A stretch of 64,000 nt of DNA, from NCBI GenBank assembly GCA_027483645.1, contig JAIXUD010000005.1, forward strand, positions 1 to 64,000. Direction: 5' to 3'. The stretch is from Sphingobacteriales bacterium. Its GTDB lineage: Bacteria > Bacteroidota > Bacteroidia > Chitinophagales > CAIOSU01. Shown here one piece after another: positions 596-54,951 of this stretch; within the stretch, counting starts at the first letter, position 1, and every line of letters begins with the position of its first letter. Below the pieces are notes generated by a model. It had not been told where the DNA came from. It worked only from the letters and a program-made list of their open reading frames with translations, and ran no database searches. Both the position numbers and the translations under genes were made by a program.

Positions 596-3271
596 ATGAA
601 GAACGTAGAGGATAAAATCCGTCCAAATTTGTTCGGAGATTTACTTAGTAAGTCTGGTAGAAATATATATTGCGACTTTGATGACTTAACTAACGAAGCG
701 TCTGTCGAAGCTTTTTTCATTAACCCTATGTTACGAGATTTAGGGTATCCAAATAAAAATATAAAAACAAAAGAATCTATAAGTAAATTAAAGCTTTCGA
801 AAGGGTCAAGTTCATTTTATTATAAACCCGACTATTGCTTAACGTTTGATGGAGCGCCCAGGATAATTATCGATGCCAAAACACCTACAGAAAAGATAGA
901 AGATTACACAAGTCAATGTATCCACTATTGTATTTTATTAAATGATAAAGAGGAAAAGCATAAAGTAGAATATTATCTTTTATCGAACGGTTTTAAGACC
1001 GGACTTTATAAAGCAGACAGTAGTAATCCTATTATTGAACTTGACTTCTTAGACTTTAGCTACGGCAACAAAAAATATGAAAGGTTAAGAAGTATAATAG
1101 CTTTTCAAAATCTCAAGAATAACAAGATAGACAAGAGCTCTGATCAGGTTTTTAAAATGAAACCTATTAGTAAGGAAGATGCACAAAAGCTTTTTTTGAC
1201 ATGTCACAAGTATATCTGGAAAGCAGAAAAGAGAAGTCCATCTTCAGCATTTATGGAGTTCATGAAAATTATTTTCGTCAAGCTCTATCATGATAGGAAG
1301 TTACATGAAGCTCATAAAGGTGTCTCGGAATATCCAAAAACGGCGGTTACCTTTTCCGTGCATTGGATTGACTCTCGAGAACAAGAAACAAATAACCCTA
1401 TCAATGATCTTCATTTTAAAAAGCTTTTAGAAGAAATTCAAGATGAAATAGATGCGCAAAATAAGAAGCGCATCTTTGAAGTGGATGAACAAATAAAATT
1501 GAAGCCCCAAACAATCAAAGCCATTGTTAAGAAGATTGAGGCTTTTGATCTTTTTGGCATTGATGAAGACTTAAATGGTCGCTTGTTTGAAACGTTTCTT
1601 AATGCAACAATGAGAGGACGGGAATTAGGTCAGTTTTTTTCCCCAAGAAGCATTGTCTTACTCTCTACATTCTTAGCAGACCTTCAGGTTAACGATAAAC
1701 ATCAAGATAAAATCATTGACCCAAGCTGTGGAACAGGGGGATTCTTGATAGAAGCCTTGACGATAATGAGGCAAAAGATTAGAGATAATAACAGCTATTC
1801 TCATCAGAAAAAGGTTGATCTTATCAAGACAATTTGTGACGAGTGCTTTTATGGGATAGACGCAGCTTCAGAGCCAGAATTAGCTAGGATTGCTCGAATT
1901 AACATGTACCTCCATGGAGATGGAGGTAGCCGCATATACAGATGTGACGGGTTAGACAATGATATACTTATTGACAAGAATGAAACAAGGGAAAATCAAA
2001 AGGAGCTACAGGAATTTAAAGAGCGTATTGAAGGGGTAGGAGGCTTTGATGTCATTCTCACTAATCCACCTTTTTCCATGTGGTATGAGTTAGAAAATGA
2101 AGATGAAGCTCGAATTTTAAAACAATATGATGTTGCAAAAGTAAACGAATCATCGACAAAACTTAGAAGTCGGCTAAGAGGTAGTGCGCTATTTATTGAA
2201 CGCTACTATAACTTATTAAAGCCCGGAGGTAAAGTTTTAACAATTGTGGATGAATCAATTATAGCTAATGATGACTGGAGTCATGTGAGAGAATTTGTTA
2301 GAAGTCGCTTTATTATTAAAGCCGTCATATCATTGCCTGGCGATGCGTTTAAAATGTCTGGAGCTAGAGTAAAAACTTCCCTCATTTATTTGGAGAAGAA
2401 AAAGTCTATTGAGGATACTCAACCTCATGCTTTTATGTACTCCTCTGTATATCTTGGTGTAGATGATTTGCCTATAATGTCGAGTAAACAAAAAATAGAC
2501 GAAGCGCGCAGATTAGCGAACGATGAAATCAGTTATATATGCTCTGAGTATAAAAAATTTGAGAGTGGTTTGGACTCTGAGTATTCAGTTTTGCCTGCAA
2601 AATTGCAAACAAGGCTTGATGTCAAATTTTGTGCTGCAAAAAATGGCAGATTAGTTAATGATTGGCGAAAACTAGGCTATGCTGTCGTGGAACTATCAAC
2701 TTTTGTAGTTAATCAAGAAAATTTACTTATCCCTAAAGAACATCCAGAGACCGAGTATAGAATTTTAACCATTACTTATGAAGGACGGGCTAAAATATCA
2801 GAAATTCGAAAAGGAAAAGATATTAATTATCAAGAAATGAAGGTTGTCAAAAAAGGCGATTTAGTTTTTTCAACCTACAATTCTATCAATGGTGCTATTT
2901 GTTTTATAACAGAGGATTTTGAAGGAGCATTAGCTTCAGCAAATTATACAGTAGTCAGATGCTCTACCGAATACGACACAGTATATTTATGGTCTTTGAT
3001 GCGCTCTACTGAAATGAAGGCTGAAATGCAGGCTGCTTCCACAGGTATGGGCAGACAGTTCTTAGAATGGATTGAAATTAGTAAGATTAAAATTCCCCTT
3101 GCCAAACCTGAGTTAAGAAAACAAATGGGTGAGAATATTCTTCAAGCATGGGAAATGGAAAAAAAGATCAAGGACTCTTACATTATTGTGAAAGAAGAGT
3201 TAAACACTCTTTTTAGTGTTGAATCTGAGGCATCTAAGCTTTGGTATCTCTCAAATAGACCTCCCAAATAA
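596..3271 (+). CDS. Single-chain restriction-methylation-specificity enzyme (type I-like fusion)
   Basis: Predicted to cut and methylate DNA with one polypeptide. Residues 30-130 form a type I HsdR-N-like PD-(D/E)XK nuclease: P78-D79, then D93-A-K95 in a beta-strand context. A helical HsdM-like linker follows, with the pre-methylase motif QFFSPR at 346-351. The N6-adenine methylase has motif I DPSCGTGGF at 375-383 and motif IV NPPF at 490-493. Residues from about 640 to 890 resemble a type I HsdS target-recognition half (a KKGDLVFSTYN-type strand and a C-terminal helix). I see no SNF2 helicase motor, so this is closer to type IIG or RMS enzymes than to a true type I complex. The ATG at 596 is the first start. 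Codon use is clearly AT-richer than the neighbours, and the IS end and RAYT gene beside it support acquisition. Target sequence unknown. Confidence 0.85.
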   Translation: MKNVEDKIRPNLFGDLLSKSGRNIYCDFDDLTNEASVEAFFINPMLRDLGYPNKNIKTKESISKLKLSKGSSSFYYKPDYCLTFDGAPRIIIDAKTPTEKIEDYTSQCIHYCILLNDKEEKHKVEYYLLSNGFKTGLYKADSSNPIIELDFLDFSYGNKKYERLRSIIAFQNLKNNKIDKSSDQVFKMKPISKEDAQKLFLTCHKYIWKAEKRSPSSAFMEFMKIIFVKLYHDRKLHEAHKGVSEYPKTAVTFSVHWIDSREQETNNPINDLHFKKLLEEIQDEIDAQNKKRIFEVDEQIKLKPQTIKAIVKKIEAFDLFGIDEDLNGRLFETFLNATMRGRELGQFFSPRSIVLLSTFLADLQVNDKHQDKIIDPSCGTGGFLIEALTIMRQKIRDNNSYSHQKKVDLIKTICDECFYGIDAASEPELARIARINMYLHGDGGSRIYRCDGLDNDILIDKNETRENQKELQEFKERIEGVGGFDVILTNPPFSMWYELENEDEARILKQYDVAKVNESSTKLRSRLRGSALFIERYYNLLKPGGKVLTIVDESIIANDDWSHVREFVRSRFIIKAVISLPGDAFKMSGARVKTSLIYLEKKKSIEDTQPHAFMYSSVYLGVDDLPIMSSKQKIDEARRLANDEISYICSEYKKFESGLDSEYSVLPAKLQTRLDVKFCAAKNGRLVNDWRKLGYAVVELSTFVVNQENLLIPKEHPETEYRILTITYEGRAKISEIRKGKDINYQEMKVVKKGDLVFSTYNSINGAICFITEDFEGALASANYTVVRCSTEYDTVYLWSLMRSTEMKAEMQAASTGMGRQFLEWIEISKIKIPLAKPELRKQMGENILQAWEMEKKIKDSYIIVKEELNTLFSVESEASKLWYLSNRPPK

Positions 3272-3357: not shown

Positions 3358-3909
3358 TCACAGCAATACCAGCGGTAATCGCTCGTCCGCCATACCCGTG
3401 TAATATACCATGGCGCTACTATACCTGTAATCTTCCGGCTTCCATACCCAGCCTGCCCTTACCGGGTTTTCGTGCAGGTATTTCAACCGCTGGCCAAGCC
3501 GTTCAGCGTCAAACAAATCTATGGGATGATAGCCCTCTTGCCAAATTTGGTACTTCTCGTGCTTGGCGCTAGCCTCTGCTTTGGCAGCAAAGCCGCGAAG
3601 CAACCACTCTCGGCGGCTTTCTTGCGGGTGTTCAGCAATGGCCCGCACCAGCGAAACGGAGGTATACTTCTTGAAATCGCGCATGATATTTGGGATAGAA
3701 TTGCTCTCGCTGCTCACTATCAGGTGCAGGTGGTTACTCATTATTACCCAAGCATGTACTATTAGCCCCTTTTGCTTTTGGCAAAACAAGAGGCTGTCCA
3801 GTATTATCTGTCGGTACTCGTCACGCGTGAACAAATCAATCCAGTGGGTAACCGTTACGGTTACGAAATAGGGCTTGTACTGCTCGCGTGCTTTATACTT
3901 CTGGCTCAC
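3358..3909 (-). CDS. REP-associated tyrosine transposase (RAYT, Y1/HUH family)
   Basis: A 183-residue Y1 transposase of the IS200/TnpA-REP superfamily. The metal-binding HUH motif is SNHLHL, with H60 and H62. A WQEGYHP block at 123-129 offers Y127 as the likely nucleophile. The C-terminal LKYLHENPVRAG and EDYRYSSA blocks are typical of RAYT proteins. Family members cut and rejoin single-stranded DNA at REP hairpins and are usually domesticated single-copy genes. The start codon is GTG (3907-3909); a related fragment at 16213-16276 has ATG at the same place. REP palindromes lie just beyond both ends of the gene, so gene and repeats form one unit. Composition is like the host chromosome, unlike the restriction gene next door. 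Confidence 0.88.
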   Translation of the reverse strand: MSQKYKAREQYKPYFVTVTVTHWIDLFTRDEYRQIILDSLLFCQKQKGLIVHAWVIMSNHLHLIVSSESNSIPNIMRDFKKYTSVSLVRAIAEHPQESRREWLLRGFAAKAEASAKHEKYQIWQEGYHPIDLFDAERLGQRLKYLHENPVRAGWVWKPEDYRYSSAMVYYTGMADERLPLVLL

Positions 3910-3932: not shown

Positions 3933-4008
3933 GGAACTAAGTTCCTTGGGCACGGAAGTAACTTCCGCGCCAGTGCGGTTCCTTGGGCACGGAAGTAACT
4001 TCCGCGCC
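3933..4008. repeat. REP-like palindromes, upstream tandem pair
   Basis: GGAACTAAGTTCC (3933-3945) precedes two copies of GGCACGGAAGTAACTTCCGC (3949-3971 and 3986-4008), spaced by a 37-base period. A weaker remnant (CTGCCGAGCCAGTACG) follows to about 4032. The array lies just 5' of the RAYT start. A small open frame at 3906-4106 is only a translation of these repeats. Confidence 0.78.
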
Positions 4009-4077
4009 AGTGCGTAACTGCCGAGCCAGTACGATATAAGCCCAAGGTAGCAGGGTATTAAGCACAACCGCCTATAT

Positions 4078-8675: not shown

Positions 8676-11600
8676 ATGATAAGGCTACTGTTGTTATGGT
8701 TGAGCATAATTGCTTGTTTCCAATCTTTTGGGGCTAACATTACCATAATTGAGAGCCAGTCAAATTCTGGTCAGAATATGGATACCCGCTGGGCAGCTGT
8801 GGCTGCAGGTATGGGCCATACGGCTACTATAAGACCCCAAACCACTTTAGACAACAGTACATTTTTTGCAACTACCGATGTCCTCATCATTGCATCAGGC
8901 GTATTAGCCATTCCAGTCAACCGACGCAATACCATACTACAGTTTATGCAAAGCGGCAAATCGGTGTATCTGCAGTCTGAGTATTTGGCTACCTATGATG
9001 GTAACCAAACATTCTCCTTCATTTTAAGCAGCCTAGGTGCCACATTCGGTTGGGGAGGGACGGTTAATGGTGATTTAGCTCCGGTGAACGTTATTGGCAC
9101 TTTTGCTAATACCAATGTTGTAGTTTCGCCGTTATCCTATTATTGGTACTCCGTAAACGGTATCGGTGATTGCAATACTGTAAACTTTTTGGAGCAGGGA
9201 GGCTTGTACCATGGTTTTCAGTATGTTCCTATTAACCCTGCCTTTGGCAGCATCATCACTACTACCGATCAAGATTGGGTAAATAGTAATACCAGCCCCC
9301 AGCTACAGCAGAACATCATTACCCACCTGCTCAATTCCATCTCTGTAAACCCAAATGCTATTGGTTTGGGTAACGATACCACGCTGTGCAATGGTGCCAC
9401 CCTCCAGCTTAATGCCACACAAACGGGTGCTACGTATTTGTGGCAAGATAACTCCACCAATGCCACTTACACGGTTACCCAGCCCGGTACCTACTATGTA
9501 AGGGTTACCAATACTTGCACGGTGGTATCCGATACCATCGTGGTAGCCTACAGTGTAGGTGCCCCCCTAAGCTTAGGTAACGACACAATACTTTGCGCCG
9601 GTGCTAGCCTTGCATTGGACGCCACAGAGGCTGGCGCCACTTATCTATGGCAAGATAACTCCACGGCAAGCACTTTTACCGTTACCCAGGCAGGCACCTA
9701 TTGGGTGCGGCGCACCACAGCTAGTTGCGGAGCGTTGACCGATACTATTGTGATAAACTATGGTACCGTGGGCAGTGTGAATATTGGCAACGACACTACC
9801 CTGTGTTCAGGTGCTACGTTGGTATTGACTGCCACCACACCCAATGCCACCTACCTATGGCAGGATAATAGCACTGCACCTACCTTTACAGTAACCCAGG
9901 CGGGTACCTACAGCGTGCAGGTAACCAGCAATTGTGGGGCATTTACCGATAATATTGTGATTACGTATTCGGCACCTGTAACTATTGAGTTGGGCAACGA
10001 TACCAACCTTTGCCCTGGAGCAACCCTTACACTTGATGCTACCGCGCTCAATGCCACCTACCTATGGCAGGATAATAGCACTGCACCTACTTATACTGTT
10101 ACCCAAGCGGGTACCTATAGCGTGCAGGTAGCTACCAGCTGTGGGGTGCTTACCGATAACATTGTAATTAATTACACAGCGCCAACAGTGGTTGATTTAG
10201 GCAACGATACTATTATTTGCGCAGGCTCGCCCCTTATTTTAGATGCAACCACGCCCAATGCCACCTATGTTTGGCAAGATAATAGCACCGCAGCTACCTA
10301 CAACGTAACCCAACCAGGTACTTATAGTGTGCAGGTAACTGCAGCTTGCAACGTGGTTACCGATAATATTGTGGTGGGTTACGTTAACCCCGGACCCAAT
10401 ACAGTGGAGCTTGGCAACGATACCATTTTATGTACAGGCCAAACCTTATTGTTGGATGCTACTGTTGTGGGAGCTAGTTATACATGGCAAGACAACAGTA
10501 CTGCTGCTAGCTACACCGTAACCCAACCCGGCACCTATGGGGTAACCGTGGTTACGGCTTGTGGCACTGTAACGGATAATATAATAGTTACCTATTTTAC
10601 CCCTAGCGCTTTAGTCCTAGGCAATGATACTAGCTTGTGCCCCGGTGCAACCCTTACCCTGGATGCAACCACACCCAATGCTACTTATCTATGGCAGAAC
10701 AATAGCACAGCACCCACCCAAACAGTAACCCAAGCAGGTACCTACACCGTGCAAGCAACCACCCTTTGCGGCGTGCTTACTGAAGATATTGTAGTGGTGT
10801 ATACCGCGCCTGTTATTTTAGATTTGGGCAACGATACCACCTTGTGTCCCGGTGTCACCCTTACACTTGATGCTACCGCGCTCAATGCTACTTACTTGTG
10901 GCAAGATAACAGCACGGCGCCAACAATTACGGTAACCCAAGCGGGTACGTATAGCGTGCAGCTAACTACCAATTGCGGGGTGCTTACTGATAATATTGTG
11001 ATTGATTATACCCCTCCAGTGGTAGTGAATTTGGGAAACGATACTTCCCTATGCCCTAGTGCTACGCTTACGCTAGATGCAACCACACCCAATGCTACTT
11101 ATCTATGGCAGAATAATAGCACAGCGGCAACGCTCACCGTTACCCAAGCGGGTACCTACCTTGTGCAGGTGACTACCAATTGCGGTGTGTTTACTGACGA
11201 TATTGTAGTGGTGTACACCGCGCCTGTTATTTTAGATTTGGGCAACGATACCACCTTATGCCCCGGTGCCACGCTTACACTGGATGCCGCCGCGCTTAAT
11301 GCTACTTACTTGTGGCAAGATAACAGCACGGCTCCTACAATTACCATAACCCAAGCGGGAACGTATAATGTGCAAGTAACCACTGGATGTGGAACGCTCA
11401 ACGATAACATAGCTATTACCTATGACGTGCCACCTTCTGTAAACCTAGGGAATGACACTTTGCTATGCCCGGGGGTAACCTTACCCTTAGATGCCACCTT
11501 TGCCAACGCAACTTACCTATGGCAAAATAGTGATACCACTGCAGTGTTCAATGTTACCCAAGCGGGTACTTTCAATGTATCTGTTAGTAATGCCTGTGGC

Positions 11601-12350
11601 ACCGCTGCTGATGCAGTAGTGGTGGACTACATAGCTCCCGTAATAGTTGATTTAGGCAATGATACTGCTTTATGTCCTGGCGCTGCATTGACCTTGGATG
11701 CTACCGCGCTAAATGCTACCTATCTATGGCAAGATGGAGCCACCGCTGCTATTTATACCACCACACAAGCAGGCACCTATAGCGTGCTAGTAACCACAAC
11801 TTGCGGTACCATAGGCGATGAAATCACTATTGATAGTTGGGCACTGCCCACTGTAAACATTGGCATTGATTCTATTTATTGCGAAGGGGATGTGGTTGTC
11901 TTGGATGCTACCTCGCCGCTGGCCAGTAGCTATCTGTGGCACGATGGCTCCGTAAGCCCTACTTTAGATTTGGTGGAGTCTGGCACTGCGTCAGTTACTG
12001 TTAGCAACAGTTGCGGCACTGCGACCGATGCCGTAACGGCGGTTTTCGAAAATTGCGAATGCTACCTTTATATGCCGAATAGTTTTACCCCGAACGGCGA
12101 TGGCCGCAACGATTTGTTTGCACCATTTACTGGTTGTGCGTTTGAAGGGTATCAATTTAGTGTTTTTGATAGGTGGGGCGAATTGGTGTTTACGGCCACC
12201 TCAACTACATCGCTAGGCTGGGACGGCACTTATAAAGGCGAGCTAGCCGCGCCAGGGGTATATGTTTACAGCATCAAATACCTACCCAACGATGTTGCCA
12301 AAGGCTCCACCGAGAAACAAGTGAAAGGCAGTGTAACATTGCTAAGATAG
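8676..12350 (+). CDS. Secreted repeat protein with T9SS type-B C-terminal domain
   Basis: A 1224-residue exported protein. Residues 1-20 are a signal peptide. Residues 21-228 form a globular N-terminal region that resembles glutamine-amidotransferase-like folds (a TDVLIIASG strand, later YHGFQYVP), without an obvious catalytic triad. Thirteen consecutive 69-residue repeats follow from residue 229, each with an LGNDTxLCPG start, a YLWQDNST core, a TQAGTYSVQV strand and an xCGxxTDNIV end; the paired cysteines suggest one disulfide per repeat. The final ~95 residues (MPNSFTPNGDGRNDLF, then FDRWGELVF and GWDGTYKG) are the CHU_C/gliding-motility-associated sorting domain recognised by the type IX secretion system. 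Likely a cell-surface or released adhesin-like protein. Repeats 12 and 13 are the most divergent. Confidence 0.9.
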   Translation: MIRLLLLWLSIIACFQSFGANITIIESQSNSGQNMDTRWAAVAAGMGHTATIRPQTTLDNSTFFATTDVLIIASGVLAIPVNRRNTILQFMQSGKSVYLQSEYLATYDGNQTFSFILSSLGATFGWGGTVNGDLAPVNVIGTFANTNVVVSPLSYYWYSVNGIGDCNTVNFLEQGGLYHGFQYVPINPAFGSIITTTDQDWVNSNTSPQLQQNIITHLLNSISVNPNAIGLGNDTTLCNGATLQLNATQTGATYLWQDNSTNATYTVTQPGTYYVRVTNTCTVVSDTIVVAYSVGAPLSLGNDTILCAGASLALDATEAGATYLWQDNSTASTFTVTQAGTYWVRRTTASCGALTDTIVINYGTVGSVNIGNDTTLCSGATLVLTATTPNATYLWQDNSTAPTFTVTQAGTYSVQVTSNCGAFTDNIVITYSAPVTIELGNDTNLCPGATLTLDATALNATYLWQDNSTAPTYTVTQAGTYSVQVATSCGVLTDNIVINYTAPTVVDLGNDTIICAGSPLILDATTPNATYVWQDNSTAATYNVTQPGTYSVQVTAACNVVTDNIVVGYVNPGPNTVELGNDTILCTGQTLLLDATVVGASYTWQDNSTAASYTVTQPGTYGVTVVTACGTVTDNIIVTYFTPSALVLGNDTSLCPGATLTLDATTPNATYLWQNNSTAPTQTVTQAGTYTVQATTLCGVLTEDIVVVYTAPVILDLGNDTTLCPGVTLTLDATALNATYLWQDNSTAPTITVTQAGTYSVQLTTNCGVLTDNIVIDYTPPVVVNLGNDTSLCPSATLTLDATTPNATYLWQNNSTAATLTVTQAGTYLVQVTTNCGVFTDDIVVVYTAPVILDLGNDTTLCPGATLTLDAAALNATYLWQDNSTAPTITITQAGTYNVQVTTGCGTLNDNIAITYDVPPSVNLGNDTLLCPGVTLPLDATFANATYLWQNSDTTAVFNVTQAGTFNVSVSNACGTAADAVVVDYIAPVIVDLGNDTALCPGAALTLDATALNATYLWQDGATAAIYTTTQAGTYSVLVTTTCGTIGDEITIDSWALPTVNIGIDSIYCEGDVVVLDATSPLASSYLWHDGSVSPTLDLVESGTASVTVSNSCGTATDAVTAVFENCECYLYMPNSFTPNGDGRNDLFAPFTGCAFEGYQFSVFDRWGELVFTATSTTSLGWDGTYKGELAAPGVYVYSIKYLPNDVAKGSTEKQVKGSVTLLR
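9360..12062 (+). repeat. Thirteen tandem 207-bp coding repeats
   Basis: The repeats encode the 69-residue modules of the secreted protein. The period is 207 bases. Within it, repeats 7-8 and 9-10 are much closer to each other than to the rest and are offset by exactly 414 bases (for example near 10801 and 11215), so a two-repeat block has been duplicated. The last unit is degenerate. Confidence 0.85.
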
Positions 12351-16096: not shown

Positions 16097-16212
16097 TTTC
16101 TAGTAAAACGGAATTATGCTTGGCTTGCGTAGTTGATTTATTTTAGCCTAACATCTCACCGCCATTTTCCCACGCCCCTTCAGATGGAACATCCGAAGGT
16201 GCAAGGTCCAGA

Positions 16213-16276
16213 GGGTAACCGTTACGGTTACGAAATAGGGTTTGTACTGCTCGCTGGCTTTGTACTTCTGGCTCAT
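16213..16276 (-). pseudogene. RAYT transposase 5' fragment
   Basis: From an ATG at 16274-16276 the frame reads MSQKYKASEQYKPYFVTVTV, which differs from the first 20 residues of the full RAYT at 3358-3909 by one residue (S8 for R8). The match stops after codon 21 and the rest is unrelated. The upstream flank, including the REP palindromes, is also shared with the full locus. This is either a deletion remnant of a second RAYT gene or a copied 5' segment. Confidence 0.75.
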
Positions 16277-16299
16277 GGAACGAATATATGAAATATGTG

Positions 16300-16338
16300 G
16301 GAACTAAGTTCCTTGGGCACGGAAGTAACTTCCGCGCC
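16300..16338. repeat. REP-like palindromes, second locus
   Basis: GGAACTAAGTTCC (16300-16312) and GGCACGGAAGTAACTTCCGC (16316-16338) repeat the modules found upstream of the RAYT gene at 3933-3971, with the same spacing. Only one copy of the longer palindrome is present here. The 325-base gap between mutS and the RidA gene is otherwise empty. Confidence 0.75.
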
Positions 16339-16421
16339 AGTGCGGTCATGCCTCGCGCTTGCTTTTCCTTAATTCCCACCAAAACCCGTATTTTTGAAAA
16401 CAACCGATAACCCTACCCGCC

Positions 16422-24917: not shown

Positions 24918-26027
24918 ATGCCCGCTATGAAAAAGACCATCTTAGAAAAATACGCACATGTACTAGTACACTACAGCCTATACTTGAAGCCGGGCGAGAA
25001 GCTCTTTGTGCGCACCACCACTTTGGCCGAGCCATTGATAAAAGAACTATACCGAGCTGCAACCCGCGCTGGAGCCATTATGGAGGTGTTCTTCGACTTT
25101 GAAGACCAAGGTAAGATACTAGCCGAAGAGGGTAACGACGATCAACTGAAATACTCCTCGCCATTTATGCAATATGCGTTCGAGAATTTTGATGCGTACC
25201 TCAACATTATGGCGCCATACAACTTGGTAAGTATGCAGCAAGCCAAGCCTGACCGGGTGAAGCTGATGAAGCAAGCATCGCAGCCGTACATGAAGGTGTA
25301 CAGTGAGCGCACGGGCAATGGCAGCATGCGCCGCAGCCTTTGTCTCTATCCCACCCACGCCAGCGCGCAAGCGGCCGGCATGAGCTTGGATGATTACGAA
25401 AACTTTGTTTTCGAGGCGTGCCATTTGTTTTCCGATGACCCAGCGGCGGAGTGGCTCAAAATCCGCAAGTTCCAGCAGGGTATTGTAGACCACCTGAACA
25501 CGGTGCACACCGTTCGCTATGTAAACCCTAAATCCGACATCAGCTTTATTACCCAAGGCCGTACCTGGATAAACAGTGATGGCAAGGCCAACATGCCGAG
25601 CGGCGAGGTGTTTACCAGCCCTATTGAAGATTCGGTGAACGGGTACGTACATTTCGACTACCCATCCATCTACGGTGGCCATGAAGTGCAGGGCATTACC
25701 TTGCATGTAGAGAACGGCGAAGTAAAAAAATGGGAAGCAGTGCGAGGCGGTGAGTTTTTGGATAGCATTTTTGCCGAGCCGGGTGCCCGGTTCTTTGGTG
25801 AGGCGGCCATCGGGTGCAATTACGGTATACAAACGCCTACCAAAAACATCCTGTTTGATGAGAAGATAGGCGGTACTATACACATGGCCATCGGCCAAAG
25901 CTACCTGCAAGCAGGCGGCAAAAACGAAAGCACCGTACACTGGGATATGATAGCCGACATGACCACCAGCGGCCAAATATACACCGACGGCACACTGATA
26001 TACGAGAACGGGAAGTTTTTGATATAG
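24918..26027 (+). CDS. M29-family (thermophilic-type) aminopeptidase
   Basis: A metalloaminopeptidase that removes N-terminal residues from peptides in the cytosol. It has the M29 layout: an N-terminal Rossmann-like half (LEKYAHVLVHYSLYLKPGEKL), then the metal-binding half with MPSGEVFTSP (glutamate ligand), FFGEAAIG (glutamate ligand), IHMAIGQSY (histidine, tyrosine) and VHWDMI (histidine, aspartate). All ligands seem present. A second in-frame ATG at 24927 (MKKTILEKY) is as likely a start, because the first one lies on the edge of a dispersed repeat. Length 366-369 aa is slightly short of the usual ~410. Confidence 0.88.
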   Translation: MPAMKKTILEKYAHVLVHYSLYLKPGEKLFVRTTTLAEPLIKELYRAATRAGAIMEVFFDFEDQGKILAEEGNDDQLKYSSPFMQYAFENFDAYLNIMAPYNLVSMQQAKPDRVKLMKQASQPYMKVYSERTGNGSMRRSLCLYPTHASAQAAGMSLDDYENFVFEACHLFSDDPAAEWLKIRKFQQGIVDHLNTVHTVRYVNPKSDISFITQGRTWINSDGKANMPSGEVFTSPIEDSVNGYVHFDYPSIYGGHEVQGITLHVENGEVKKWEAVRGGEFLDSIFAEPGARFFGEAAIGCNYGIQTPTKNILFDEKIGGTIHMAIGQSYLQAGGKNESTVHWDMIADMTTSGQIYTDGTLIYENGKFLI

Positions 26028-26098: not shown

Positions 26099-26317
26099 AT
26101 GGATCAGTACATCGTTCGCCTTAAAGACCGCTCGAAAAGAAAGCTATTTTTGGATTTGTTGAAGCAACTTGATTTTATTGAGGACGTAAAGGAACTAAAA
26201 GGCTCTGCTAAAACTAAGTCCATTACCGAGTTTATAGGTGCGCTCAACGAAGTAAAAAGGCACGAGGCAGGCGAAATTAAACTACGCAAGGCAAAAGATT
26301 TTTTGAATGAGCTTTGA
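26099..26317 (+). CDS. Antitoxin of a type II toxin-antitoxin pair
   Basis: A 72-residue charged, helical protein. It ends 11 bases inside the RelE/ParE-like toxin gene, which is the usual antitoxin-first, overlapping arrangement. The C-terminal half (EFIGALNEVKRHEAGEIKLR) would be the toxin-wrapping tail. No known DNA-binding motif is obvious in the N-terminal half (a single LFLDLLKQLDFIEDV helix), so the antitoxin family is inferred from position. Autoregulation by the complex is expected from family knowledge, but no operator is visible. Confidence 0.75.
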   Translation: MDQYIVRLKDRSKRKLFLDLLKQLDFIEDVKELKGSAKTKSITEFIGALNEVKRHEAGEIKLRKAKDFLNEL

Positions 26318-49668: not shown

Positions 49669-49706
49669 TAGTAGTTGGGATAATACCAATCACATAATTC
49701 TATTTT

Positions 49707-49745
49707 CGTGGTTCTCCATGGTTTTTTCTGTGTTCTCCGTGGTTA
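49707..49745. repeat. Dispersed intergenic repeat, family ACCACGGAG, copy 2 (inverted)
   Basis: On the minus strand this reads TAACCACGGAGAACACAGAA and onward, matching 24874-24914. It sits between galE and the convergent SDR gene. Confidence 0.5.
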
Positions 49746-49794
49746 AAAACAAACCACGTTGTCGTATATGAGGTCGGCGCTTATCTGCAATCTA

Positions 49795-52256: not shown

Positions 52257-52284
52257 AAGGCCCGCCACTTTTGTGGCAGGCCTT
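52257..52284 (-). terminator. Rho-independent terminator belonging to the displaced icd end
   Basis: A 12-bp stem (AAGGCCCGCCAC with GTGGCAGGCCTT, one mismatch) and a TTTT loop. On the minus strand it is followed by six T residues. It lies 23 bases beyond the stop of the icd fragment. A similar hairpin is 24 bases beyond the intact icd stop, at 53654-53682. Confidence 0.75.
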
Positions 52285-52307
52285 ATATCTCAAACAAAAA
52301 TCAATTG

Positions 52308-52395
52308 TTAAACCGCAGCAACTGGTGCCATGTGCTTGATGATTTCGGTACCGAACTCAGAGCATTTCAGCTCGATGGCACCTTCCATTAGGCGG
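52308..52395 (-). pseudogene. Displaced 3' end of icd (attachment-site duplicate)
   Basis: The last 28 codons and stop of isocitrate dehydrogenase ([15 protein letters not shown]... to PVAAV) recur here with no amino-acid change and about two base changes compared with 53707-53794. Homology stops abruptly at 52395. The distance between the two stops is 1399 bases, and the intervening DNA is AT-rich. This is the far junction of an integration into the 3' end of icd, or a tandem duplication of that end. Confidence 0.85.
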
Positions 52396-52447
52396 AGAAA
52401 CTGGACTTTGGGATGCTGTTAAAAAGGCTTTCAAAATCAAGGACTAA
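52394..52447 (+). other. Possible C-terminal gene fragment at the element junction
   Basis: Starting at the junction, one plus-strand frame reads GETGLWDAVKKAFKIKD and stops with TAA at 52445-52447. It looks like the end of a real protein cut by the junction. It is short, so chance cannot be excluded. I cannot assign a family. Confidence 0.3.
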
Positions 52448-52513
52448 TCAGCCTGATTGGTTAATATTAGAGGCCTTAGCCGAAAAGCGGGGGGCTTCTT
52501 TGTTTAGACCACT

Positions 52514-53593
52514 TTAAAACCAATTGTCTTCATCAATATCGTTATCTGGTTTGTTTGGATCCAACTCGAAGTTAAATAATTCATTATAATATTGATATTC
52601 ATTTACAAAATCCCTAGAAACTCTGTAATGCTTACACCCGATAGCTTTTTGGGAATTACAAGGCTCTTTCAGAATTTTGCAGAAGACTGGATTTTTCTTT
52701 CCATCTATATTTTCTAGCCAATTATTATCTGCAAAATATTTACATAAAAAGCAATTTTGCACTTTTATGTTTTTACTATAAGATTTGGCAATTAAGTATT
52801 TATATTTATTTCCATGATTTCCTTTGTTTTTTGAAATTTCATAATGCAGGGGTTCCTTATCCTGTAAGTAAAGAAAAATCCCTTCTAATTTTTTTTGGTA
52901 AAGTATGGAACGGCCATCGGATTCAACGACGAAAAAATCAAAGCTTTTTGTGCAACCATTTACACATAAAACTTCTTCCTTCTCACGTTTAAAATGATGA
53001 AAGGCATTATTTTCATTTTCAATTATTTTATGTCGCTTGATAGGTATTAAATCCTCTTCGGTTTGAACACTGAACTCAATCAACTTTACTCTTGATTGCA
53101 GTTTCTTCTCAGAAGAAAAATGAGAAACTGCAATTTCAATATAAAGCTTATATCTGCCATCACTACTTAGAAGTAAAACGTCAGGTATATATTCACCATC
53201 GTGTTTTTCCAGCTCAATTGTATCATAAATTTTTGTTAAATCGTATTCAATAGGTTCATTTTTGAAACATGTTATATTTAGTTCGTTTTTCCAACGCACG
53301 CATCTTTTTTCTTGTCTTAGGCCAATGATAAAAGGTAACTGGCTTTTCAAGCAAAGAGCATATTCATCATAAAAAACCCTCTTGCCCAACTTATGGAGAT
53401 AAGTTTCTTTGCTACATACGAGAGTCGTTTTATGAGCAAAGTGGTGTTGTTTAATCTTGCCAAGCTTAGGAATAAGCTCATTGCCACAAGAAATACATTT
53501 GTAATATGATTTATGTTTATTTGCCAACCCACTCAGTTTATCTATATTTATAAGCAATCCCGCTTGATCCAGTGCGTGTTGATATTTAATCAT
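52514..53593 (-). CDS. CoiA-like nuclease, cargo between the icd copies
   Basis: A 359-residue protein from the ATG ending at 53593; the frame is open to 53653, but the longer start adds a poor prefix. The N-terminal zinc-ribbon-like part has C33-x2-C36 and HHFAHK (50-55). A nuclease-like segment follows: P137-D138 and E153-I-A (YIPDVLLL..., LYIEIAVSH), a PD-(D/E)XK pattern found in CoiA competence proteins. A second Cys-rich cluster lies near the C-terminus (CFLCKYF... GCKHY). It is strongly AT-rich compared with icd and lies inside the 1.4-kb insertion. Lone CoiA homologues occur in mobile or defence islands; that role here is inferred. Confidence 0.75.
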   Translation of the reverse strand: MIKYQHALDQAGLLINIDKLSGLANKHKSYYKCISCGNELIPKLGKIKQHHFAHKTTLVCSKETYLHKLGKRVFYDEYALCLKSQLPFIIGLRQEKRCVRWKNELNITCFKNEPIEYDLTKIYDTIELEKHDGEYIPDVLLLSSDGRYKLYIEIAVSHFSSEKKLQSRVKLIEFSVQTEEDLIPIKRHKIIENENNAFHHFKREKEEVLCVNGCTKSFDFFVVESDGRSILYQKKLEGIFLYLQDKEPLHYEISKNKGNHGNKYKYLIAKSYSKNIKVQNCFLCKYFADNNWLENIDGKKNPVFCKILKEPCNSQKAIGCKHYRVSRDFVNEYQYYNELFNFELDPNKPDNDIDEDNWF

Positions 53594-53653
53594 CTTCAAT
53601 TGCTTTTGCTGTTCAACATATAAACATAGCCACATACAGTTGCTATCAAACAA

Positions 53654-53682
53654 AAGTGGCCCACCAATCTGGCGGGCCGCTT
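53654..53682 (-). terminator. Rho-independent terminator after icd
   Basis: AAGTGGCCCACC pairs with GGCGGGCCGCTT (one mismatch and one G-T wobble) around a 5-base loop. On the minus strand a T-rich CTTTTGTTTG follows. It is 24 bases past the icd stop and has a counterpart at 52257-52284. Confidence 0.75.
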
Positions 53683-53706
53683 CTATTTCAAATTAATTAG
53701 TTACAA

Positions 53707-54951
53707 TTAAACCGCAGCAACCGGTGCCATGTGCTTGATGATTTCGGTGCCGAACTCAGAGCATTTCAGCTCGATGGCACCTTCCATTAGGCGGGCAAAG
53801 TCGTAGGTTACTTTTTTGCTGCCGATGGCACCATCAATGCCAGTTACAATCAAGTCAGCAGCTTCCTGCCAGCCCATGTACTCAAACATCATTACACCTG
53901 AAAGGATAACCGATGAAGGGTTTACCTTGTCCAATCCAGCATATTTAGGGGCAGTACCATGGGTAGCCTCAAATATGGCGTGGCCGGTAAGGTAGTTAAT
54001 GTTGGCACCGGGTGCAATACCAATACCACCAACTGCAGCAGCCAATGCATCGCTTACGTAGTCGCCATTCAAGTTCAAGGTAGCGATAACACTATACTCC
54101 GCCGGGCGCAGCAAAATCTGTTGCAAAAAGGCATCAGCAATAACGTCTTTCACAATCAGCTTGTGGCCATCTTTATTGATCACCTGCCATGGGCCGCCAT
54201 CCAAATCCACTGCACCAAATTCGTCTTTCGCCAACTGGTAACCCCAATCGCGGAAGGCGCCTTCGGTAAACTTCATAATGTTGCCCTTGTGCACCAAGGT
54301 AAGGCTAGGTTTCTTTTGCTCGAAAGCATATTCGAAAGCCGCGCGAACCAAGCGCTCGGTACCTTCCTTACTTACTGGCTTAATGCCGTAAGCGGTAGTA
54401 TCAGGGAAACGTACTTTCTTAAAGCGCTCAGGGAAGTTGGTTTTTAAGAATTCGGCAAACTTAGCTGCCTCTGGAGTGCCTTCTGCAAACTCGATACCGG
54501 CGTAAATGTCCTCGGTATTCTCACGGTAGATAACCATGTCAACCAACCAAGGCTCTTTTACTGGGCTAGGCACGCCTTTGAACCAACGCACCGGGCGCAC
54601 GCAAGCGTATAAGTCAAGCTGTTGGCGCAGGGCCACGTTCAACGAACGGATACCGCCACCGACAGGGGTAGTAAGAGGGCCTTTGATGGCTACCAAGTAC
54701 TCGTTGATAACGTCCAAAGTTTCTTGTGGCAACCAGTTTTGGGTTTGGTTAAAGGCCTTTTCGCCGGCCAACACTTCGCGCCACTCAATTTTGCGGGTAC
54801 CGCCGTAGGCTTTCTCCACTGCGGCGTCAAGCACACGAACGGATGCTGCCCAAATATCCGGACCGGTTCCGTCGCCTTCGATAAAAGGAATTACTGGGTT
54901 ATTAGGTACTGTAAGCTTACCATTAGCAATGGTGATTTTTTGTCCGCTCAT
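53707..54951 (-). CDS. icd: NADP-dependent isocitrate dehydrogenase
   Basis: TCA-cycle enzyme making 2-oxoglutarate, CO2 and NADPH. The 414-residue sequence has the substrate serine S103 ([12 protein letters not shown]), the [11 protein letters not shown]-terminus, NLNGDYVSD and HGTAPKYAG with K336-Y337, which mark NADP preference. All blocks are intact to the C-terminal PVAAV. A second copy of the C-terminal 28 codons is displaced 1399 bases downstream (52308-52395). Promoter-like elements lie at 55005-55034. Single gene. Confidence 0.94.

Follow-up and report, generated by a model that had tools for sequence, protein, structure and literature searches.

The 3' end of icd, the gene for NADP-dependent isocitrate dehydrogenase, occurs twice in the window analysed here (64,000 nt of contig JAIXUD010000005.1 from a Sphingobacteriales bacterium), once within the intact gene and once as a fragment without an attached gene. 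How does the end of a housekeeping gene come to be repeated in this way, with 1.4 kb of other DNA in between? A previous interpretation made from the letters of the window (the sequence-only reading) held that a small element had recombined at icd and displaced the old gene end, and suggested a decayed or helper-mobilised element, the icd 3' end being a classic target of site-specific elements.

The duplicated icd end and the DNA it encloses

Comparison of the two ends reveals a direct repeat of 88 nt (97.7% identity, E 5e-37, start-to-start distance 1399 nt; Table 1). With the flanks included, the repeat begins 88 nt 5' of the stop codon and ends exactly at the stop. The two differences between copies A and B are both in third codon positions and both synonymous. 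The icd-end observation is real: the recurrence with about two base differences and no amino-acid change, the spacing of 1399 and the sharp end of homology at 52395 had all been claimed and are confirmed, the match extending over exactly 52308-52395. A hairpin after each stop had also been described, at 23-24 nt in both cases; both hairpins are present, at distances of 23 and 28 nt. A terminator scan found these 2 against 1.4 expected, which is weak evidence taken alone. The stretches past the two stops (UTR A and UTR B) show only a distant likeness to each other, in contrast to the 97.7% identity of the coding ends.

Table 1 Features of the icd locus and of the M29 aminopeptidase site, with positions in the window
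Feature	Position	Strand	Basis
M29 aminopeptidase, intact	24918..26027	+	PF02073 E 1.2e-78
Putative antitoxin partner, 72 aa, no Pfam match	26099..26317	+	position
RelE-family toxin, 115 aa	26307..26654	+	PF06296 E 3.5e-7
Displaced M29 aminopeptidase 3' end, 39 nt, 79%, ends with stop codon	26669..26707	+	E 4e-5, local scan
Terminator-like hairpin after displaced icd end	52257..52284	-	12 pairs, 23 nt past stop, fold z -5.4
icd 3' end copy B, displaced, without attached gene	52308..52395	-	sequence comparison
Copy of last 55 nt of metK plus about 3 nt	52394..52450	+	91%, one 1-nt deletion, E 1.2e-14
Possible terminator between metK piece and cargo stop	52450..52512	+	fold z -2.1 only; not called by terminator scan
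Cargo CoiA_N-domain protein, 361 aa, GC about 0.3	52514..53599	-	PF25164 CoiA_N E 7.6e-10
Terminator-like hairpin after intact icd	53658..53678	-	9 pairs, 28 nt past stop, fold z -4.8
icd 3' end copy A, within intact icd	53707..53794	-	sequence comparison
icd, NADP-dependent isocitrate dehydrogenase, 414 aa, intact	53707..54951	-	NF005425 E 1.4e-214

The DNA between the copies is AT-rich, as had been noted, with a GC content of 0.33 compared to ~0.45-0.5 in the surroundings. Its sole substantial open reading frame encodes the CoiA_N protein, the remaining frames of at least 50 aa being 53-61 aa each. No integrase is found among these frames, and 1.4 kb leaves no room for one. The sequence-only reading had called the cargo a CoiA-like nuclease; the CoiA_N domain was recovered with PF25164, while Pfam recognises no nuclease domain, so that the nuclease label is best regarded as putative.

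Searches with the cargo gave no match in PADLOC, a single NCBIfam match far under the cut-off, no match in six other genomes of the family and, by back-translation, no relatives in named genomes. Within the order, relatives were detected in 13 of 396 genomes including this one, the other 12 being weak. The 86 genes scanned around these 13 loci contain no 3' gene-end copies; one marginal 5' row and one mid-gene row were seen there. Matches were found in 817 plasmid records, five of which cover at least 80% of the query at 28-35% identity, suggesting the cargo family is mobile elsewhere. Among phages, one record matched, over 21% of the query. A single-sequence structure model of the protein (mean pLDDT 30.6) was of no use.

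The sharp edge at 52395 corresponds to a junction with a copy of the 3' end of metK, a feature absent from the earlier account. It was found by searching the genome itself with the locus as query, which returned a single second match; metK (methionine adenosyltransferase, TIGR01034) is located on another contig. The metK piece includes the stop codon and is oriented toward the cargo. By eye, it differs from the resident metK by four synonymous changes and one 1-nt deletion, and past the stop the two sequences diverge. The displaced icd end and the metK piece overlap by 2 nt (GG) only, a microhomology; the icd case is the one for which joins were checked. In genome G005, a partial metK copy lies downstream of the gene (23 nt, 87%, E 1e-3).

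Gene-end copies at icd and at other genes

Matches resembling icd were present in 48 of 60 relatives, several of them weak, and a separate icd-end fragment was seen in this genome only. The same holds for 30 icd loci cut from that search, one of which had 20 nt available for testing. We also took 80 named icd loci, the best matches being mostly Bacteroidota; 9 were too short, and none of the 71 with at least 1 kb downstream carries an end copy. The comparison of icd loci in relatives, which the sequence-only reading had put forward as a check, shows the end copy in this genome only among the loci compared. It provides no clean empty site, because the congeners G002-G004 have a different gene downstream of icd; they contain no insert, and the region is not syntenic. 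metK was matched in 59 of the 60 relatives. In no relative where both genes were found are icd and metK neighbours, as judged by eye on draft contigs that could hide such an arrangement, and the order icd-coiA-metK was not found in the 60 relatives searched.

Gene-end copies were then sought across 852,780 bp and 619 genes of the genome (C1:1-400000, C13:1-200000, C16:1-180000 and the whole of C5). Four intergenic, nearby, same-strand 3' copies were found at three genes, icd, nadB (two copies) and an amidase gene, all downstream of the parent gene. Set aside were six local 3' rows inside other open reading frames, taken as paralogues, and queries with more than six hits (10 local 3', 23 local 5' and 47 local mid-gene rows). 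When 612 genes were scanned locally with higher sensitivity, the amidase gene falling outside at the end of its stretch, four non-coding 3' copies were obtained (two at nadB, one each at icd and the M29 aminopeptidase gene), again all downstream and on the same strand. Mid-gene control segments gave one copy, which is inverted. Among the 16 rows obtained with 5' segments, orientations varied and one row was in the mirror arrangement; the other 15 were taken as dispersed repeats. A repeat at C1 201956/202722 was dropped as a tandem intergenic array. The case at C13 42480 resembles paralogous signal peptides and was retained in the counts.

Congener G002 (240 kb, 175 genes) contains one 3' case and one 5' case. 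Congener G003 (200 kb, 146 genes) has no 3' case and one mirror 5' case, plus three other 5' rows likewise taken as dispersed repeats. No gene-end copies were found in G006, a genome of the same family (200 kb, 145 genes), and none in the expected arrangement in four genomes of other families (400 kb, 269 genes), where three other rows stem from one gene. The resulting proportions, 8 of 933 genes within the genus (including the amidase gene and the doubtful C13 case) and 0 of 414 outside, do not differ significantly (Fisher p 0.12). No integrase was seen among the cargo frames of the recurrent cases.

Several of these sites differ between congeners. Behind the M29 aminopeptidase gene, this genome carries the RelE pair and the displaced end, G004 has a 317-aa open reading frame (GC 0.34, no Pfam match) with a displaced end of 24-29 nt, and G002 a 455-aa open reading frame without an end copy; in G001 and G003 nothing is inserted, and the gene for a 2'-5' RNA ligase starts 3 nt on. 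In G004, a RelE pair lies among other open reading frames behind the ligase gene, whose own end is duplicated (63 nt, 92%). The RelE pair is hence accompanied in each genome by a duplicated end of its respective host gene. At nadB (TIGR00551), a ParE-type pair is found in both this genome and G001, and behind it lies a displaced nadB end, within which the G001 contig stops; in this genome, an extra end copy precedes the pair. In G002 the displaced end accompanies a DUF2442 gene; G004 has an antitoxin-like gene with no end copy detected, and G003 a single end with neither cargo nor copy. At the serA-rluF site, which provides the mirror 5' case, G003 carries a RhuM-Fic gene with a duplicated rluF 5' end and G001 matches it through the insert, while this genome has an unrelated 291-aa open reading frame (GC 0.34, no copy by eye). 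Alternative cassettes are thus found at the same conserved genes for the nadB, M29 and serA-rluF sites, and empty sites in congeners for nadB (G003) and M29 (G001, G003).

Two sites may involve further factors. A dispersed repeat ~38 nt long lies after the nadB stop, and the nadB repeats extend 26-39 nt past the stop, suggesting that dispersed repeats may take part at this gene; no repeat of this kind was found at icd. The amidase cargo, a VWA/YfbK protein, is of ordinary GC, and three congeners have no copy and other genes downstream, hence the amidase case may be of another origin.

Across 13 pairs of ends (with two entries for nadB of this genome and with the doubtful C13 case), the repeats measure 29-125 nt, except where shorter locally. 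They stop within 7 nt of the gene boundary in 7 of the 13 pairs and 26-48 nt beyond it in 5, and one is cut by a contig end. As the repeats cross the gene boundary to a variable extent, no sharp boundary rule holds. The coding parts differ at 66 positions, distributed as 16, 7 and 43 over codon positions 1, 2 and 3. Synonymous differences account for 44 of the 66 (67%), compared to ~44% expected from a rough model in which one copy is selected and the other decays freely (p 1.7e-4, an optimistic value, since independence of the pairs is incomplete and local alignment tends to pick out the better preserved parts). The predominance of synonymous differences suggests two diverged functional alleles. 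On a plain reading, the paired ends would mostly have diverged as working genes in separate lineages before they met, the insert having brought the foreign allele. Signs of decay are seen in some copies, namely the second nadB copy and the M29 copy of this genome.

Origin of the arrangement

We consider it probable that the icd locus arose by insertion with a long target duplication, in which sister-lineage DNA found its anchor through homology with the gene end, adding a small cassette and displacing the old end; the joining step and the donor are what we infer from the map. The donor fragment would have comprised the last codons of icd with their terminator, the coiA-like gene and the metK scrap. 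It would have paired by homology with the recipient icd 3' end, while the second join would have required almost no homology, as the GG overlap suggests. For the 3' cases in general, this second join would fall inside the recipient end copy, 24-90 nt before the stop. As an outcome, icd would keep or gain a full end, and the old end with its terminator would be shifted by 1.4 kb. The recurrence of like arrangements behind other housekeeping genes of the genus points to gene gain driven by recombination that would do without an integrase.

The donor may have been linear, in a homology-facilitated illegitimate recombination (HFIR) with duplication. It may also be pictured as a circle of ~1.4 kb entering by one crossover, the metK/icd join then being the circle-closing join. 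Both forms are predicted to yield an identical final map. Gene ends are perhaps favoured solely because deeper insertions would be lethal, and the direct repeats should permit RecA-dependent loss of the cargo, leaving icd intact. Like the form of the donor and this loss, the donor lineage, the uptake of DNA and the order of events are inferred. ComEC, present in all five genus genomes, is compatible with DNA uptake without proving it; the family also occurs in 10 of 14 control genomes and therefore says little on this point. Several further findings run against insertion with long target duplication. The 60 relatives include no genome resembling a donor, and the contrast between the two UTRs and the 97.7% identical coding ends exceeds what a simple sister-strain donor would predict. 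No closed empty site is seen at icd, the excess within the genus is not significant, and the repeats do not all stop at the gene boundary.

The icd 3' end is a classic integrase target, and in Escherichia coli e14 and phage 21 replace it and displace the old end. An element of this type, its integrase lost or supplied in trans, could have joined an element-borne and a chromosomal icd end, and the intact icd, the repeat ending exactly at the stop and the purely synonymous differences are all as in element-borne ends. However, the 1.4 kb contain no integrase and no room for one, comparable end copies of variable length occur at five other named unrelated genes, 0 of 71 testable named icd loci carry an end copy, and the metK piece at the edge would be left unexplained. 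Given the lack of space and the like architecture at unrelated genes, an icd-specific, e14-like integrase reading is not supported, and we regard it as unlikely. What stands of the small element proposed by the sequence-only reading is the acquired-looking cargo, the intact icd and the displaced end; a decayed integrase element and a dedicated attachment site at icd are not supported.

The duplicated ends need not be foreign if a local tandem duplication, or the templated patch repair of a break, copied the icd and metK ends from the genome itself. Source and copy do reside within one genome, a join that holds small pieces of other genes looks like patch repair, and some copies cross the gene boundary as a plain duplication would. 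Such copies are nevertheless difficult to reconcile with the excess of synonymous differences (44/66 versus ~44% modelled, p 1.7e-4, for pairs that are not fully independent), with a metK scrap whose differences are synonymous apart from one deletion, and with a cargo that is foreign in GC and missing from six other family genomes; local copying therefore appears improbable to us. Misassembly of the draft would be another cause to consider, given that the genome is in 23 contigs, that repeats are common break points and that a G001 contig ends inside the nadB end copy. The icd-metK join, however, has a 2-nt overlap and lies inside a 72,780-nt contig, and like arrangements are found in separately assembled congeners, making an artefact highly improbable.

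Relation to known systems and significance

The general pattern is best explained as a variant of a known, under-studied process, insertion with long target duplication. Nobusato, Uchiyama, Ohashi and Kobayashi (Gene, 2000) reportedly described it for the restriction-modification genes of Helicobacter pylori. In Neisseria, minimal mobile elements are small cassettes that replace one another between a given pair of conserved genes and move by way of flanking homology; the nadB, M29 and serA-rluF sites may be comparable in their alternative cassettes and differ in the duplicated gene end, which to our knowledge is not part of the definition of such elements. Laboratory HFIR usually deletes recipient DNA, whereas here the recipient end is duplicated. 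The icd locus differs from e14 and phage 21 in having no integrase and in the like copies present at other genes.

Restriction genes of Helicobacter provide known examples of insertion with long target duplication (PMC1643837, PMC3154945, PMC4978471), which PMC3874152 also cites. The inserts described here are alike in that a long direct repeat of the target flanks the insert, in being polymorphic between relatives (at nadB and M29) and in carrying selfish or defensive cargo. The present cases are from another phylum, and what is duplicated in them is the end of a gene, which thereby stays intact. Instead of restriction-modification genes, the cargo consists of CoiA_N, ParE- and RelE-type pairs, RhuM-Fic and DUF2442, and one insert also bears a second core-gene end (metK). 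The flanking repeats (88 nt at icd, 29-125 nt over the 13 pairs) far exceed transposon target duplications. In H. pylori, a duplication of 1577 bp has been described together with one homologous and one non-homologous join (PMC4615327). Variable segments flanked by repeats make up 10-18% in PMC2884548, and merodiploid formation by transformation is reported in PMC3784515; PMC3046158 concerns inversions.

HFIR is summarised in the abstract of PMC3240628 as one homologous and one non-homologous join, and the proposed homologous anchor plus the microhomology join at icd/metK is alike. For Vibrio T6SS immunity arrays and Rhs orphan modules, PMC5361080 reports gene-tip displacement with HFIR as the proposed route. 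There too, the incoming module finds its anchor in a conserved part and the old 3' end is moved downstream. The difference is that in those systems the toxin gene itself is re-tipped, while the housekeeping genes in the present cases are unrelated, retain their sequence and act as anchor only. Judged by titles and the beginnings of abstracts, our literature search returned no description of the gene-end cassette pattern in Bacteroidota.

A broader view, which we put forward as a rather doubtful possibility, is that these are recombinase-free mobile cassettes, in which a small selfish or defence gene travels with the end of a housekeeping gene as a portable attachment site for host recombination. 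Entry by a single crossover would leave the gene intact, the cassette could pop out again, and occasional capture of a second gene end (as with icd plus metK) would widen the choice of sites.

It is poorly explained how a toxin-antitoxin pair, a small defence gene or another single gene spreads without a transposase or integrase. One genus here displays a repeated, readable scar: the end of a core gene is duplicated, the cargo is often rich in AT, and relatives have the site empty or differently occupied. Such scars lend themselves to genome-wide counting and to excision tests, and they would carry the mechanism proposed for restriction genes of Helicobacter into a further phylum and to other kinds of cargo.

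Gene ends and starts at other sites

In the source genome of the window, about 250 nt separate nadB from its first extra end copy (6570-6821 of L109, the stretch G000:C16:100001-120000), and this stretch may be what is left of an earlier cassette. The same genome has, in the interval from serA to rluF, an AT-rich 291-aa ORF without a Pfam match (2180-3055 of L186, the stretch G000:C11:137500-142500), which occupies the same site as the RhuM-Fic gene in the congener G003. In another congener, an 89-nt repeat (98.9%) spans the start of a 421-aa gene, with a second copy 2.8 kb upstream of this gene (G002:C28:90709-94849, the region L230-L231, inside L225). This repeat is the most recent-looking of the copies seen.

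Other features of the window

Features of the window by position
Feature	Position	Strand	Pfam
N-6 DNA methylase / type I-like restriction gene	596-3271	+	PF02384
IS200-like Y1 transposase	3358-3909	-	PF01797
Large surface-type protein, ORF	8676-12350	+	
Internal repeats of this protein	9636-11787		
Dispersed repeat, ~70 nt, intergenic	49686-49758		

The dispersed repeat has ~11 partial copies elsewhere in the same genome. By our reading, the transposase is of the REP-associated kind. It is surrounded by short repeats (3941-4014 is given among its coordinates), and a 140-nt copy of its 5' region (95%) is located 12 kb off, at 16207-16346. The methylase gene, close to the window start, may be a defence locus.
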